64,000 bases of DNA from Paraburkholderia ginsengiterrae (GTDB taxonomy: Bacteria > Pseudomonadota > Gammaproteobacteria > Burkholderiales > Burkholderiaceae). Shown in pieces: positions 1-6,025 of this stretch. The position numbers were made by a program, and so were the translations under genes. The notes beneath the pieces were generated by a model, which saw only the letters and a program-made list of their open reading frames with translations, made no database searches and was not told the DNA's origin. How positions within the stretch are numbered: position 1 is the first letter of the stretch; each line of letters begins with the position of its first letter. Where the stretch lies: assembly GCF_001645125.1 (NCBI RefSeq), contig NZ_LXKA01000087.1, positions 62,001 through 126,000 on the forward strand. The letters are read 5' to 3'.

Positions 1-1164
1 ACCCTGGATCAGACCCGGCGTGATGATCTGCGTGAACGTCATGGTCAGCGTGAAGTGCGCGTCCCACCACAGCACGGCGGCGAACACGAGAAAGCCGAAC
101 GTGGCGAGTACGCGCGCGTCGAACCGCGCCGCATGAATGCCGACCAGAATCGAGAACACCAGCGCGAGCACGCCGAGCGGCGCCGTGGCGAGTCCGGCCT
201 GGTAGGCGGTGTAGCCCATCACGGCTTGCAGCCACAGTGGAAAGATCACGCCGACCACCGAGAAGCTCATCATGCCAAGCGAAATGATCAGCACACAGAA
301 CGAAAATGTGCGATCGCGGAACAGGCTCAAATCGATCACCGGATGACGCTCGCCCGCCTCCCAGATCAGCAGCGACGCGATCGCCAGCACTGCCACAATC
401 GCCAGTATCAGAATTAGCGGCGAATCGAACCAGCCGCGGTCGTGGCCGAGGTCGAGCACGGCCTGCAGCGACCCGACACCCACGACCAGCAGCACGATGC
501 CCGGCAGATCGATCGGCGCGGCCTTGCGGTTGGGTGCTTCGCGACGCAACAGCGTCATGCACACCGCAAACGAAAAGATGCCGATCGGCAGATTGATCAG
601 GAAGATCCACGGCCACGAAAAATTGTCGATGATCCAGCCGCCGACCACCGGCCCGAAGATCGGCGCGAGCAGCACCGTCATCGCCCACAATGCGAGTGCC
701 ACCACGCGCTTGTCCGGTGGAAAGGTGCGCAGCAGGATGGTTTGCGAGAGCGGCACCATCGGACCGGAGAATAGGCCTTGCAACGCGCGGCACACCACCA
801 GCACGTGAAAGTCGCCCGCCACGCCGCACAGCAGCGACGTCAATGTGAAAAGAATCACCGCGCCGAGGAAGAGCCGCGTCTCGCCAAGGCGCAGCGATAG
901 CCAGCCCGTCAACGGCACGGCGATGGCCGCGGCCACGGAATACGAACTGATGACCCACGTGCCCTGGCTATTGGACACGCCCAGACCGCCGGAAATGGCC
1001 GGCACCGCGACGTTCGTCACCGTCGAATCCAGCACTTCGATAAACGTGGCCAGCGACAGTGCGAACGTCAGCAATGCGAGCCGCGCGCCGCGCAAGTTGC
1101 GCGCGCCGCGATGTGCGTCCGGCTCCATCGCGGCGCCGCCCGCCAGCGGCGTTGTGGCGCTCAT
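1..1164 (-). CDS. EmrB/QacA-family MFS exporter (partial, 3' end outside window)
   Basis: Proton-driven multidrug or glycolipid exporter of the inner membrane, DHA2 (14-TM) branch of the major facilitator superfamily. The N-terminus reads MSATTPLAGG, then a first membrane segment running into IEVLDSTVTNVAVP and the GTWVISSYSVA stretch typical of EmrB proteins. The remaining visible part is a succession of hydrophobic segments with DHA2 loops. 388 codons are visible and the C-terminus runs off the left edge. Its ATG overlaps the rhlB stop by 4 bp (ATGA), so it is translationally coupled to the rhamnolipid genes. An EmrB-like exporter directly after rhlB is usual in Burkholderia rhl clusters, so rhamnolipid export is the inferred role. 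Confidence 0.9.
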   Translation of the reverse strand, partial: MSATTPLAGGAAMEPDAHRGARNLRGARLALLTFALSLATFIEVLDSTVTNVAVPAISGGLGVSNSQGTWVISSYSVAAAIAVPLTGWLSLRLGETRLFLGAVILFTLTSLLCGVAGDFHVLVVCRALQGLFSGPMVPLSQTILLRTFPPDKRVVALALWAMTVLLAPIFGPVVGGWIIDNFSWPWIFLINLPIGIFSFAVCMTLLRREAPNRKAAPIDLPGIVLLVVGVGSLQAVLDLGHDRGWFDSPLILILAIVAVLAIASLLIWEAGERHPVIDLSLFRDRTFSFCVLIISLGMMSFSVVGVIFPLWLQAVMGYTAYQAGLATAPLGVLALVFSILVGIHAARFDARVLATFGFLVFAAVLWWDAHFTLTMTFTQIITPGLIQG

Positions 1165-2501
1165 GCGCGTTGCCCGCTGTTTGCCAACGCGGGCAGCAGC
1201 TTGGACACGGGCTGGTGAGTGACGTATTGCTCTCGCACGCCGCCCGGCATGAACCCTTCGATATAACGCGCAGCCGCCTCGCAGCCATCCGGCGACGCCG
1301 CCAGCCTGTCCTGCATGCGCACGCACTGGAGCGCAATCGACGGGTTGCCAAGTACGTGACCCAGCGCGCGCGCCAACGCTCGCGGCTGCAGAGGATCGTC
1401 GAGCCGGACCCCGCAGCCGCTGGCGGCGACGCGCTGCGCGTTATCGAACTGGTCGTGCGCAAACGGCGTCACGACTTGCGGAATACCGGCCTCGTAGGCA
1501 AGCGCTGCCGTGCCGATCCCGCCGTGATGCACCAGCGCCCGGCAGCGCGGCAACAGCGCCTGGAGGGGAACATAGCGGCGCTTGAGCAGCGCGAATTGCG
1601 CGTCCGCCTGCGGCGTGCTCGCTTCAGCAGACGGTGCATCCGGCGTCAGGAGAATGCCGCGCAGGCCGCGCTCCAGCGGCGCCGCGCGCACCGCCGCTTC
1701 ATACTTCGCGTGATCGACCAGCGTCGAACCCGCCGTGAACACCACAGGCCGCTCACCGCTGTCGAGGAACGCGTCGAGTCCCGCGTCGATGGCTTGCGCG
1801 CTGGTGTCGTTAAAGAGCGGAAATCCGCTCGCGCGGTATGGCGCCGGCCAATCCGGCTGCGGTTGCGCGAACCATTCGGGAAAGAGGCAGAGCACCCCAT
1901 CGGTCGAATGCAGCCACTGGCCGAAAATGCGCTTCGCCGGCGCGAGGCCGAGCTCCCCACGCAGCGCGTTAAGCGCCGGGCCGCAGACCTTGTCGAGCGC
2001 ATACCGCTCGATCAGCCGCATCAGCGCCACCTTCACGGCAAGCGGCAAACCGCGCGGGATGGTAAGCCTCGGATGAGTAGGCGGGGCGTGCGCGGACAGC
2101 AACGTGGATGGCGACACCTGAACCGACACGAACGGCACGCGATACAGCTCCTGCATCAGCCGCGCGGAAAAAGCCCACAACGTGCCCACCAGCACCGTAT
2201 CGTCATCCGTCAACGCGGCAAGCGTATCGAAATGCGGCCGTAGCGTCGGCGCGATCACCGCCCACAAGGTTCGAAACGACGTGCGCGGATGCCATAGCGC
2301 CGGATTCGCCATCGCCGCTGCATACTCTTCGGCCGTGCCGATCGGCACGAAGGTGAACCCCTGTCTCCGGGCGGCCTCCGCGAACGGCGGATGCGTGCAG
2401 AACACGATCTCGTGCCCGCGTGCGGCCAGTGCCGCGCCGATGCCTAGGAGCGGATGCACGTCGCCCGCCGAACCGATCGCGGTAATGATGACTCTGGTCA
2501 T
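1161..2501 (-). CDS. rhlB: Rhamnosyltransferase RhlB-like (GT1 family)
   Basis: 446-residue GT1 glycosyltransferase. RhlB moves rhamnose from dTDP-L-rhamnose to 3-(3-hydroxyalkanoyloxy)alkanoic acid, giving mono-rhamnolipid. The sequence opens with the GT-B start ITAIGSAGDVHPLLG, has the RhlB-like VSPSTLLSAHAPP segment near residue 130, and ends with the donor-binding HHGGIGTAALAYEAGIPQ and PFAHDQFDNAQR motifs. Length is close to P. aeruginosa RhlB (about 426). It follows the methyltransferase gene by 10 bp and overlaps the exporter by 4 bp. The resemblance to RhlB runs along the whole protein, and rhlA lies two genes upstream, so the assignment is strong; acceptor chain length cannot be read. 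Confidence 0.9.
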   Translation of the reverse strand: MTRVIITAIGSAGDVHPLLGIGAALAARGHEIVFCTHPPFAEAARRQGFTFVPIGTAEEYAAAMANPALWHPRTSFRTLWAVIAPTLRPHFDTLAALTDDDTVLVGTLWAFSARLMQELYRVPFVSVQVSPSTLLSAHAPPTHPRLTIPRGLPLAVKVALMRLIERYALDKVCGPALNALRGELGLAPAKRIFGQWLHSTDGVLCLFPEWFAQPQPDWPAPYRASGFPLFNDTSAQAIDAGLDAFLDSGERPVVFTAGSTLVDHAKYEAAVRAAPLERGLRGILLTPDAPSAEASTPQADAQFALLKRRYVPLQALLPRCRALVHHGGIGTAALAYEAGIPQVVTPFAHDQFDNAQRVAASGCGVRLDDPLQPRALARALGHVLGNPSIALQCVRMQDRLAASPDGCEAAARYIEGFMPGGVREQYVTHQPVSKLLPALANSGQRA

Positions 2502-2511
2502 GGCGCCCGCT

Positions 2512-3081
2512 TCAGAAGACGCCGGGAATCAGCGCAGCGACATCGCGCCGATACTGCGCATAGGCTCCGCCAAAGTAGCCGGTCAACCAGCTTTCCTCCA
2601 CGCGAACCTTATACGCAAGCGACGCAAAAATCATCAGCAGCCCAGCCACGCCGCGCCACTCCGCGCCGATCAGCACGGCACCCGCGAGCGCCAGCAGGCA
2701 ACCGGTATAAATAGGATGCCGTACGAGCCCATACGGGCCGCTGCGCACCAGTTCATGTCCTTCTTTCAGCGTTACCGAGACGCTCCAGTTCGTGCCGAGA
2801 TGCAGCCGTGCCCACACCGAAAACGCGAGGCCGGCCAGCAGCACGGCGAGGCCCGCGAGTTGCAGCGGCCCAATCGTGTGCAGATCGAAAGACCATGCCG
2901 CTGCTTGTGCATCCGGCAAGATGATCAGCGCACCGCCGGCGATCAACGGAATCGACTGCAACGTGCGCGAGACAGACGCTTCTTTGCGCGCGGTCTCCTT
3001 AACCTGGTTCGACGTCGCGACCCAATACAACAGCCAAAGGGTCCACGGTACAACGATGGCGATACTCTGAGCGATATTCAC
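2512..3081 (-). CDS. Isoprenylcysteine carboxyl methyltransferase (ICMT)-like membrane methyltransferase
   Basis: 189 residues, mostly hydrophobic, with four or five predicted membrane segments. The C-terminal half carries the ICMT/phospholipid methyltransferase signature: GPYGLVRHPIYTG near residue 115 and a later EESWLTGYFGGAYAQY block. These form the SAM and substrate sites in the family, which methylates carboxylates of lipid-modified substrates or lipid headgroups. The start is GTG at 3081, overlapping the rhlA stop by 4 bp (GTGA), so it is coupled to rhlA. Position between rhlA and rhlB suggests it acts on the hydroxyalkanoyl lipid or the finished rhamnolipid, for example by methyl-esterifying the free carboxylate. 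That role is inference; no catalytic specificity can be read. Confidence 0.85.
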   Translation of the reverse strand: MNIAQSIAIVVPWTLWLLYWVATSNQVKETARKEASVSRTLQSIPLIAGGALIILPDAQAAAWSFDLHTIGPLQLAGLAVLLAGLAFSVWARLHLGTNWSVSVTLKEGHELVRSGPYGLVRHPIYTGCLLALAGAVLIGAEWRGVAGLLMIFASLAYKVRVEESWLTGYFGGAYAQYRRDVAALIPGVF

Positions 3082-4049
3082 GGTAGTTCGGCCTGTTGGA
3101 ACGAGTGATCGGCAGCGGACTGCAATGCGGCGTCCACGATGGCTCGCGGCGCGAGCGGCAAGCTGGGCGAACGCGCCGTCAGCGCGTCGAGGCAGTCGAG
3201 CGCCCGGCCCGAAGCCTGCGCCGGCGAGGGGCCGAAGTAATCGAGAATGGCCGTGCGAACCTGGCGCAAGGCGGGGCGCCCTTCGAGGTCAAGAAAGTGA
3301 CCGGCCTGCTCGATCGTGGCGAACTCCGCGCGCTTCAGATGCGCGCTCAACGAGCGGGCGTCATCGGGTGTGGTGTATTCGTCGAGTTCGCCGTTGAGGA
3401 ACTTCAGCCCGCAGTCGATGTTGCGGAACTCGTGCAGATAATCTTCCGGACGTATCGACAGAATCTGGTCGACGTGAAACGCCACCTGCTCCTGCTCGTC
3501 GCGCGGCAGCGTCGACAGATAGCGGTAGTTGTAGAGCTTCATGATGCGCGGCAGATGACGGCCCACGGTATCGTTGAGCAGTTGCGCGGCTTTGAGGTTT
3601 TCGCCCGCGGCGATATGGTCGCGCGCGGCGGTCACGTACGCGGTCATCGGTTCGTTGAGCCGCGGCGAGAACGACGCAATCACAGCGCGCTTGACGCTGG
3701 TGCGCGCACGCGACAACGCCAGCAGCGACGCGACCCCGCCCCACGATACCGACAACAGGAAGCTCGGCTCGAATACGCCGATCAGATGCAACAGGATGTC
3801 GACTTCATCGTCTTTGGTGAGGATGAAATCGCAAACGTTATGAGCTTTCGATTGCCCTGCATAAGGCAAATCGAAACAGATTGGGTTGTAGCGTTCGCCG
3901 AGGTATTTGATCGTCTGGCCGAACGACGCAGTGGTAGCCAGTGCGCCATTGATCAGAATGACACTCTCGAAGGCCGGATTGAATACGTGACGTTCAACGT
4001 AGACTTTCAGGCCCGCGGGTAGCGGAACAAGGAGTTTTTCGATGGGCAT
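3078..4049 (-). CDS. rhlA: 3-(3-hydroxyalkanoyloxy)alkanoate synthase RhlA
   Basis: 323 residues, alpha/beta-hydrolase fold. RhlA condenses two 3-hydroxyacyl-ACP units into the dimeric lipid that RhlB glycosylates. Visible landmarks are INGALATTASFGQT, LPYAGQSKAHN, the nucleophile elbow SVSWGGVASLLALSR, the acid in NGELDEYTTPDDAR and the base in QAGHFLDLEG, all matching known RhlA proteins. The frame is open further upstream, but the ATG at 4049 (MPIEKLLVPLPAG) aligns with the family start, so I use it. It is the first gene of the rhl operon; a candidate promoter and a palindrome lie upstream. Confidence 0.92.
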   Translation of the reverse strand: MPIEKLLVPLPAGLKVYVERHVFNPAFESVILINGALATTASFGQTIKYLGERYNPICFDLPYAGQSKAHNVCDFILTKDDEVDILLHLIGVFEPSFLLSVSWGGVASLLALSRARTSVKRAVIASFSPRLNEPMTAYVTAARDHIAAGENLKAAQLLNDTVGRHLPRIMKLYNYRYLSTLPRDEQEQVAFHVDQILSIRPEDYLHEFRNIDCGLKFLNGELDEYTTPDDARSLSAHLKRAEFATIEQAGHFLDLEGRPALRQVRTAILDYFGPSPAQASGRALDCLDALTARSPSLPLAPRAIVDAALQSAADHSFQQAELP

Positions 4050-4244
4050 GGCGTATTCGCAAGCACTTGCACTAAGCAGGTGCGTACCGATACCGCGCCC
4101 GCCAACGCGGACGCCTTGCGGCCGTACTGCCGGAAGATCAGGCCCATGCGACTCGCCCTTGCAGGTCAAGTCAGATCCCCCACAGCCGCTTCTGCATCGA
4201 AGCACGCACACCTTGTGTGATACGTGCCGGCTCTCCAGGTCACG

Positions 4245-4260
4245 CGCCTGAGTTCAGGCG
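4245..4260. promoter_or_regulatory. 16-bp palindrome in the rhlA 5' region
   Basis: Perfect inverted repeat CGCCTGA-GT-TCAGGCG between the candidate -10 box (4296-4301) and the rhlA start. It could be an operator or an RNA hairpin in the leader. It does not have the CTG-N10-CAG spacing of a lux box. Confidence 0.4.
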
Positions 4261-4295
4261 AGTTTCAATCGAGCGTTCGATGCCTCGTAATATTT

Positions 4296-4326
4296 CTTAT
4301 AGGTAAATTCGAAAGCGTTGCGTCAA
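4296..4326 (-). promoter_or_regulatory. Candidate sigma-70 promoter of rhlA operon
   Basis: On the minus strand a TTGACG (-35, 4321-4326) and a TATAAG (-10, 4296-4301) are separated by 19 bp. Spacing is a little long. It would give a leader of about 240 nt before rhlA. The rest of the 485-bp spacer 4050-4534 holds the palindrome at 4245-4260, an AT-rich tract around 4410-4440 and no convincing gene. Confidence 0.35.
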
Positions 4327-4534
4327 CATCTATCGCACGCCATTCGTTGACCCCAGTCTGCCAGCACCGCGTGAAGGCTACGTGTCAAGCTGAGGTAGCG
4401 GAAGGTTTTTTAACACATTTCAAAAATAATTTCTAAAAAAATCCTAGACCATGCATTCGACATAGACGGGTAAATGCGTCATGCAACGGATCGCTTGAGC
4501 GACTGACTTCATACGGCACGCACAACACTGGGTA

Positions 4535-6025
4535 TCAGGAACGGCAGGCCCTGCTGGCGAGGTCACGCACGATCGTTGCGAGGCGCGCCACCAGAGCATC
4601 GGCGTCTTGCGGTTTGATGCCCGCATAGCCAAGCATGAAACCGTTGTAGCGCGCGGTGTCTCGCGCCGGGTGATGGCAGAACGCGCTCAGCGCAGAGATA
4701 TACAAGCCGTGTTCGCGCGTGGCGGCGCTCACGTCCTGATCGCGTAGCGGCGCGTCGAGCCGTACGGTCAGATGCATGCCGCCGCTGTCCGACGAGATCG
4801 TCACCAGGTCGCCCATGTGCCGCTCGATCGCTTCCACCAGTGCGCCCCGGCGTTGCTGATAGAGGCGCCGCATGCGCCGCAGATGTCGCGCATACTTTCC
4901 GCTTTCGATGAAATCGGCCAGCGCGATCTGTTCGGCCACGCGCCCTTGCCGCGCGATCTCGCTGAGCGTCGCGTCGACCTGGGCGGCAAGATGCGCCGGC
5001 ACGATCATGAAGCCCATGCGCAACGCCGGGAACATCGTTTTGCTGAAAGTGCCGAGATAGATCACCGGCGTGTGCTCCGCTAGCCCCTGGATCGACGGTA
5101 ACGGCGGACCGCTGTGGCGCAGCTCGCTGTCGTAATCGTCTTCGATGATCCACGCACCGCGCGCCATTGCGTTCTCGATGATCGACCAGCGCCGCTCCAG
5201 GCTCAGCACGCTGCCAAGCGGATACTGATGCGAGGGCGTGATGTACATGAGGTGCGGCGGCGTCTCCTGCCAGTGAGCGGGCGTCGGCGCCATGCCGGCG
5301 GCGTCGACGGGAATCGGCACGAGGCGCAACCCTGCTGCCAGGAACGCGGCTTTCGCGCCGTGATAGCCAGGATCTTCGACCCACACGCTGTCGCCCGGAT
5401 CGGCGAGCATGCACGCGCACAGATCGAGACTCGCCTGCGTGCCGGCAGTGATGAACACCTGCTCGGCCGAACAGCGCACGCCCCGTGAGACGCGCACATA
5501 TTCGGCAATCGACCGGCGCAGCGCAGGGTGTCCCGAGTTGTTGCCGTAGCCGAGTTCGTTGGGCTCGACGGCGCGCCACGCGCGTTCCATCGAGGCCCGC
5601 CATTGGCCGAGTGGGAATTCGTCGAGTGCGGGCACGCCGGGCCGAAACGGCGTAGGCTCGTCGGGATTGGAGCGTTCCCGCGGCAGGTCCGTCGCGCGGC
5701 GCGACAAGCTGTTGCCGGGCTCGCGCAGCCTGCTGGTCGAAGACGATGTCGCGCCACCCGCGCCGCTCACCATGTTGACGATTGAACCGTGGCGGCTCGC
5801 CGTGATGAATCCCTCTTCCGTGAGCCGCTCGTAGGCGTATAAAACCGAGTTGCGGGCAATGCCCAGTTGCTCGGCGAGCGCGCGGCTTGCAAGGAGACGG
5901 CTGCCGTGATGAATGTCGCCGTCGAGAATCGCGCGGCGCAGGCTCTCGTAAAGCAGGTCTTGCTGCGTGAGCTTGCGGCCGCCCAAAGCGCGTTCGACAT
6001 TCGACATCAACAGACCGTAGTCCAT
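4535..6025 (-). CDS. MocR/PdxR-family transcriptional regulator (GntR wHTH plus aminotransferase domain)
   Basis: 496 residues. An N-terminal GntR winged helix (about 18-85, with LLASRALAEQLGIARNSV) is joined to a type I aminotransferase domain from about residue 125. The PLP-binding core is present: IIEDDYDSELRHSG, and the Schiff-base lysine in YLGTFSKTMFPALRMGF. MocR proteins act as regulators that sense PLP or an amino compound, often controlling a divergently transcribed neighbour. Here the divergent neighbours are the small membrane protein at 6140 and the GNAT gene at 6446. The start is ATG at 6025, 114 bp from the divergent gene. Its real target cannot be read. Confidence 0.9.
   Translation of the reverse strand: MDYGLLMSNVERALGGRKLTQQDLLYESLRRAILDGDIHHGSRLLASRALAEQLGIARNSVLYAYERLTEEGFITASRHGSIVNMVSGAGGATSSSTSRLREPGNSLSRRATDLPRERSNPDEPTPFRPGVPALDEFPLGQWRASMERAWRAVEPNELGYGNNSGHPALRRSIAEYVRVSRGVRCSAEQVFITAGTQASLDLCACMLADPGDSVWVEDPGYHGAKAAFLAAGLRLVPIPVDAAGMAPTPAHWQETPPHLMYITPSHQYPLGSVLSLERRWSIIENAMARGAWIIEDDYDSELRHSGPPLPSIQGLAEHTPVIYLGTFSKTMFPALRMGFMIVPAHLAAQVDATLSEIARQGRVAEQIALADFIESGKYARHLRRMRRLYQQRRGALVEAIERHMGDLVTISSDSGGMHLTVRLDAPLRDQDVSAATREHGLYISALSAFCHHPARDTARYNGFMLGYAGIKPQDADALVARLATIVRDLASRACRS

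Follow-up and report, generated by a model that had tools for sequence, protein, structure and literature searches.

Locus and proposed function

Why does the gene of a membrane methyltransferase of the isoprenylcysteine carboxyl methyltransferase (ICMT) family lie between rhlA and rhlB, two genes of rhamnolipid synthesis, in Paraburkholderia ginsengiterrae? The gene, called rhlM below, is located at the left edge of the window, which is the whole stretch of 64,000 nucleotides analyzed here (bases 62001-126000 of contig NZ_LXKA01000087.1, in a genome of 8.5 Mb) and whose open reading frames (ORFs) and gene junctions were read from the sequence. We interpret the locus, at a probability of about 0.93, as a rhamnolipid methyl ester operon with the order rhlA-rhlM-rhlB-emrB-rhlC-(outer membrane efflux protein)-(HlyD-type protein). 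The gene order, the family membership of RhlM, its matching cofactor residues and an arrangement conserved among related genomes carry this interpretation, and methyl-ester synthesis by the strain is suggested by analogy with a characterized relative, Paraburkholderia kirstenboschensis F3. The rhlM gene, its product and its genus-wide distribution were already published in 2024, and the system is not a new one. What is added here is a 4-base-pair (bp) overlap of rhlA and rhlM throughout the clade of the window, as well as two genomes from which rhlM was probably lost secondarily.

In the proposed pathway, RhlA would couple two 3-hydroxyacyl units into a hydroxyalkanoyloxy-alkanoate (HAA), to which rhamnoses would be added by RhlB and probably by the rhlC-like enzyme. 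RhlM, located in the inner membrane, would subsequently move a methyl group from S-adenosylmethionine (SAM) onto the free carboxylate of the rhamnolipid, yielding a non-ionic methyl ester. Export of this ester is probably performed by the products of the three transport genes, namely EmrB, the outer membrane efflux protein and the HlyD-type protein.

Comparison with the characterized rhlM

An ICMT-family gene downstream of rhlA in P. kirstenboschensis F3 was named rhlM by Liu et al. 2024 (ISME J; PMC11069360). According to this account, deletion of rhlM abolished the rhamnolipid methyl esters and kept desmethyl rhamnolipids and HAAs, a plasmid-borne copy brought the methyl esters back, and the methyl group was labelled by D3-methionine (PMC11069360). 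In this relative, methylation is therefore RhlM-dependent and its methyl group is derived from methionine. The original prediction had proposed, for the locus in the window, that the methyltransferase caps the rhamnolipid carboxylate as a methyl ester, and the knockout, complementation and labelling of a gene at the same place in P. kirstenboschensis F3 support this proposal by analogy. Its further statement that no characterized operon with such an insertion was known is superseded by the same work (PMC11069360).

Like the gene in the window, rhlM of P. kirstenboschensis F3 (locus tag RW095_02150) encodes an ICMT-family membrane methyltransferase and immediately follows rhlA within a rhamnolipid cluster. 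The two proteins also share H122 and E162 at identical numbers, as well as similar helix regions. No difference in kind was found between them in this comparison, which was made by published description and not by sequence alignment.

RhlM might instead methylate the HAA before rhamnosylation, giving either the methylated intermediate that the original prediction had allowed for or a methyl-HAA as a separate product. The location of rhlM between rhlA and rhlB, together with its 4-bp overlap with rhlA, would suit such an early action. However, the delta-rhlB mutant of P. kirstenboschensis F3 is described as containing HAAs with no methylated HAAs detected, and methylation was for this reason proposed as the last step, an order that is thus drawn from mutants (PMC11069360). 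Moreover, the delta-rhlM mutant still produced desmethyl rhamnolipids (PMC11069360), and the order of reactions need not mirror the order of genes. Methylation of the HAA is accordingly held to be very improbable, and the proposed alternative of a methylated intermediate finds no backing in these mutants.

Features of RhlM and points against the reading

The assignment of RhlM to the ICMT family is based on its match to Pfam ICMT PF04140 (E 1.3e-13; 51.6 bits, with a cut-off of 24), and it matches Pfam PEMT PF04191 as well (E 3.4e-11). Sequence comparison also revealed homology to the ICMT-like protein of the archaeon Methanosarcina acetivorans (4a2n, E 2.1e-12) and to a eukaryotic ICMT (5vg9, E 5.4e-6), in both of which the RHP motif is aligned. 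Unlike RhlM, these two proteins have no link to rhamnolipid genes, and the substrates of such ICMTs are given as prenylated proteins or as not known (PMC11069360). The score of RhlM against NCBIfam NF040696 (protein-S-isoprenylcysteine O-methyltransferase) is 83.3 bits, below the cut-off of 160, and RhlM is therefore regarded as a member of the wider family and not called a protein ICMT.

In RhlM of the window, RHP is found at residues 121-123 and EE at residues 162-163, so that H122 and E162 have the numbering of the published SAM contacts. An AlphaFold2 model built from an alignment of 18 homologues (mean predicted local distance difference test score 86.9, predicted template modelling score 0.85) contains helices at residues 3-22, 36-54, 72-98, 123-139 and 142-170. 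All of these except 123-139 would nearly or fully span the membrane stretches given in the published description, which are 4-24, 35-55, 76-94 and 144-163.

Several points weigh against the reading of the locus as a methyl ester operon. H122 and E162 do not vary among the aligned homologues (18 of 18), which include six distant ones without adjoining rhl genes, and for this reason they reflect the chemistry of the family rather than rhamnolipid specificity; the latter, for RhlM of the window, rests on gene context and on the published gene. Ester production in this strain is a prediction from its genes, and rhlM precedes rhlB in gene order although methylation is proposed to come last. In addition, RhlM was likened to its characterized counterpart by description, and the 48 loci obtained in the genome scan described below include no record titled P. 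kirstenboschensis.

Organization of the operon

As described in the original prediction, rhlA, the ICMT-family methyltransferase gene, rhlB and the gene of an EmrB exporter are joined by 4-bp overlaps or a 10-bp gap; all four lie on the minus strand (Table 1). The start codon of rhlM overlaps the TGA of rhlA (GTGA), 10 bases separate the TGA of rhlM from the ATG of rhlB, and the ATG of the EmrB gene overlaps the TGA of rhlB (ATGA). RhlA aligns with the solved HAA synthase over residues 4-277, while 38 solved glycosyltransferase sequences match RhlB at E<=1e-6.

Table 1. Genes of the rhamnolipid operon within the window (MFS, major facilitator superfamily)
Gene	Product	Position	Strand	Evidence
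rhlA	HAA synthase, 323 amino acids, ATG start	3078..4049	-	PDB 8ik2, E 3.9e-71; Abhydrolase_1
rhlM	ICMT-family membrane methyltransferase, 189 amino acids, GTG start	2512..3081	-	Pfam, solved homologues, H122/E162, model
rhlB	Rhamnosyltransferase, 446 amino acids, ATG start	1161..2501	-	GT28 N-terminal and EryCIII-like C-terminal domains
EmrB-like	MFS exporter, first 388 codons in the window	1..1164	-	MFS_1 (Pfam)

The whole EmrB gene encodes 526 amino acids, and its remainder lies left of the window on the parent contig. There, on the same strand, it is followed by the gene of a GT2-family glycosyltransferase (rhlC-like, 327 amino acids), and then by one gene for an outer membrane efflux protein and another for an HlyD-type protein (409 amino acids), after which comes an EamA-family gene on the opposite strand. 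The names rhlC, NodT and EmrB are those that we assume for the genes of this operon, for which Pfam supplies the families only. We take a Burkholderia-type rhamnolipid operon to comprise rhlA, rhlB, an rhlC-like gene, an EmrB-type exporter, an outer membrane efflux protein and a protein of HlyD type, all encoded on the same strand, and every one of these parts is present in the operon of the window.

Upstream of rhlA and on the same strand, a GntR/aminotransferase (MocR-type) regulator gene is located at 4535-6025 (minus strand). No tblastn match to it was obtained at E<=1e-5 in about 4 kb upstream of rhlA in each of 24 named rhl loci, and it was therefore left out of the operon. Scanning positions 3900-4700 for the sigma-70 consensus yielded 0 sites, with 0.3 expected.

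Distribution of rhlM between rhlA and rhlB

The rhlA-rhlB interval was surveyed across the genus, as the original prediction had suggested, in 145 genomes including that of the window (rhlA and rhlB at E<=1e-40, ICMT at E<=1e-15). A match to rhlA was found in 48 genomes and a match to rhlB in the same 48, and in 46 of these 48 rhlM lies between the two on the same strand, the exceptions being genomes G200 and G243. Because the same order on one strand recurs so widely, the arrangement of rhlA, the methyltransferase gene and rhlB is not due to chance. The gene is not equally often found away from rhl genes: among the 52 ICMT matches, which come from 51 genomes, 46 occupy the rhlA-rhlB interval (59-100% identical to RhlM of the window) and six are located elsewhere (30-43%). 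A family sample of 200 genomes, which includes the window's own genome and shares four genomes carrying both rhlA and rhlB with the genus survey, contains 24 genomes of that kind. rhlM lies between the two genes in 22 of them, G083 (two cluster copies) and G052 being without it, and eight of the 30 ICMT matches in this sample are away from rhl operons (31-48% identity). Of the 48 loci obtained by scanning titled genome records, 24 bear a Burkholderia, Paraburkholderia or Caballeronia label, and matches in all 24 follow the order rhlA-rhlM-rhlB-EmrB-rhlC (with rhlA in two pieces in locus L117).

Of the Paraburkholderia species that have an rhl cluster, 92% were previously reported to carry rhlM; in Burkholderia, one subclade was described as carrying rhlM and the other as being without it, with one exception, and Robbsia as being without rhlM (PMC11069360). 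The same paper cites Magri and Abdel-Mawgoud 2022, and also Gauthier et al. 2024 on a nonionic rhamnolipid from Burkholderia lata.

In a plasmid collection, 10 records have an rhlA match, four of them from B. glumae, and 15 records have an rhlM match. Three Burkholderia records match both genes, and the four B. glumae records are not among the 15 that match rhlM.

Another very improbable explanation is that RhlM is a generic ICMT/PEMT-family protein that sits in the operon by chance and acts on another lipid or small molecule, which would agree with its matches to both Pfam families, with distant homologues (32-52%) whose flanks, as far as fetched, contain no match to rhlA, rhlB or rhlC (24 of the 48 loci from titled records, several of them on short contigs), and with 12 large Rhizobium plasmid records (H14-H25) whose ICMT-family homologues match RhlM at 37-40% and which are not among the rhlA matches, but all 46 matches of at least 59% identity in the genus survey sit between rhlA and rhlB, and deleting the published rhlM abolishes rhamnolipid methyl esters (PMC11069360).

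In some of the surveyed clusters rhlA appears interrupted. It is split over two overlapping frames in L015 (G187) and L117 (Burkholderia sp. TSV86), and in L165 (G315) an in-frame stop interrupts it near codon 65; each case may be a broken gene or a sequencing error.

Gain and loss of rhlM

The clusters without rhlM (G200, G243, G052 and both copies of G083) are similar to that of the window in having rhlA and rhlB on one strand, and those of G083, G200 and G243 also in having EmrB and rhlC-like matches downstream. Unlike the window, they show no match to rhlM in the rhlA-rhlB interval, and a product with a free carboxylate would be expected of them. No EmrB or rhlC match was found in the 7 kb fetched for G052. 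G083 (L158 and L159; same family) possesses two rhl cluster copies on one contig, which have identical RhlB and are both without an rhlM match.

An RhlB tree was built from 59 rows, 54 of them different; it has a midpoint root only and some long branches, and the place of G083 in it is poorly resolved. Paraburkholderia species are the rows nearest to the genome of the window. Three changes are needed on this tree for the five rhlM-less rows (G200, G243, G052 and both G083 copies). G200 and G243 group together, with G183, which carries rhlM, as their closest neighbour (100/100), inside a fork that also contains the rhlM-bearing G253 (98/87), and this nesting among rhlM-bearing genomes suggests a secondary loss of rhlM in the G200/G243 line. 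The pattern of gain and loss deduced in this way agrees with the complex history described in PMC11069360. The two neighbouring genomes, both of the same genus, also vary in other genes of the cluster: in G183 (L155) the rhlC match comes after the HlyD-type gene, so that the order differs, and in G253 (L161) it directly follows rhlB, and the 4.5 kb fetched contain no match to EmrB.

The overlap of rhlA and rhlM

The 4-bp rhlA/rhlM overlap is present in 24 of 54 rows, namely in each of the 20 rows of the supported fork to which the window belongs (98/94) and in L121, L156, L162 and L164 of other forks. Of the 20 rows in the window's fork, 18 have an RhlA of 318-330 amino acids; L114 and L115 have the overlap with RhlA of 305 and 298 amino acids, respectively, indicating that a longer RhlA tail is not required for it. 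In L013, L014 and L016-L030, which belong to genus g12, RhlA has 300 amino acids and the rhlA-rhlM gap is 49-88 bp. This genus was taken for Burkholderia because RhlB of G134 and G187 is identical to that of B. singularis and Burkholderia sp. TSV86. In other Paraburkholderia forks, the two genes are separated by 1-52 bp or more in six further rows (a repeat not counted); the gap is 49 bp in P. bannensis and 52 bp in P. tropica. Four pairs of rows, L012/L112, L013/L116, L015/L117 and L031/L155, each represent a single gene or genome twice. It could be speculated that the overlap couples the translation of rhlA and rhlM and keeps methyl-ester output near HAA output, making the strain an almost pure ester producer with an exporter tuned to a non-ionic product, which we consider unlikely.

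Homologues away from rhl operons

Additional flanks and ORFs were read for four of the six genus matches located elsewhere (the second copy of G224, and those of G075, G171 and G143) as well as for two genomes of another genus, G048 and G072, with a Pfam scan of some ORFs of L152, L148 and L149 only. The genus genomes with rhlA or rhlB matches do not include G075, G171 or G143, and those of the family sample do not include G048 or G072. The second homologue of G224 (43%; G224:C1:3792449-3793030) has no rhl genes beside it; this genome also carries rhlM in an rhl operon, and its sole rhlA and rhlB are 3.2 Mb from the second homologue on the same contig. A 32%-identical homologue in the same genus (L152:66-7406, within G143:C12:57500-68000) stands in a same-strand gene row, in which Pfam recognized a polyketide synthase (DH, KR, ACP), a zinc-type alcohol dehydrogenase, the ICMT/PEMT methyltransferase, a fatty acid hydroxylase and an alpha/beta hydrolase. 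This row resembles the setting described for Rhodanobacter, where a fatty acid hydroxylase and an rhlA-like hydrolase are reported (PMC11069360).

Finally, with its rhlA-rhlM-rhlB operon, P. ginsengiterrae is one genome more among the expected producers of rhamnolipid methyl esters.

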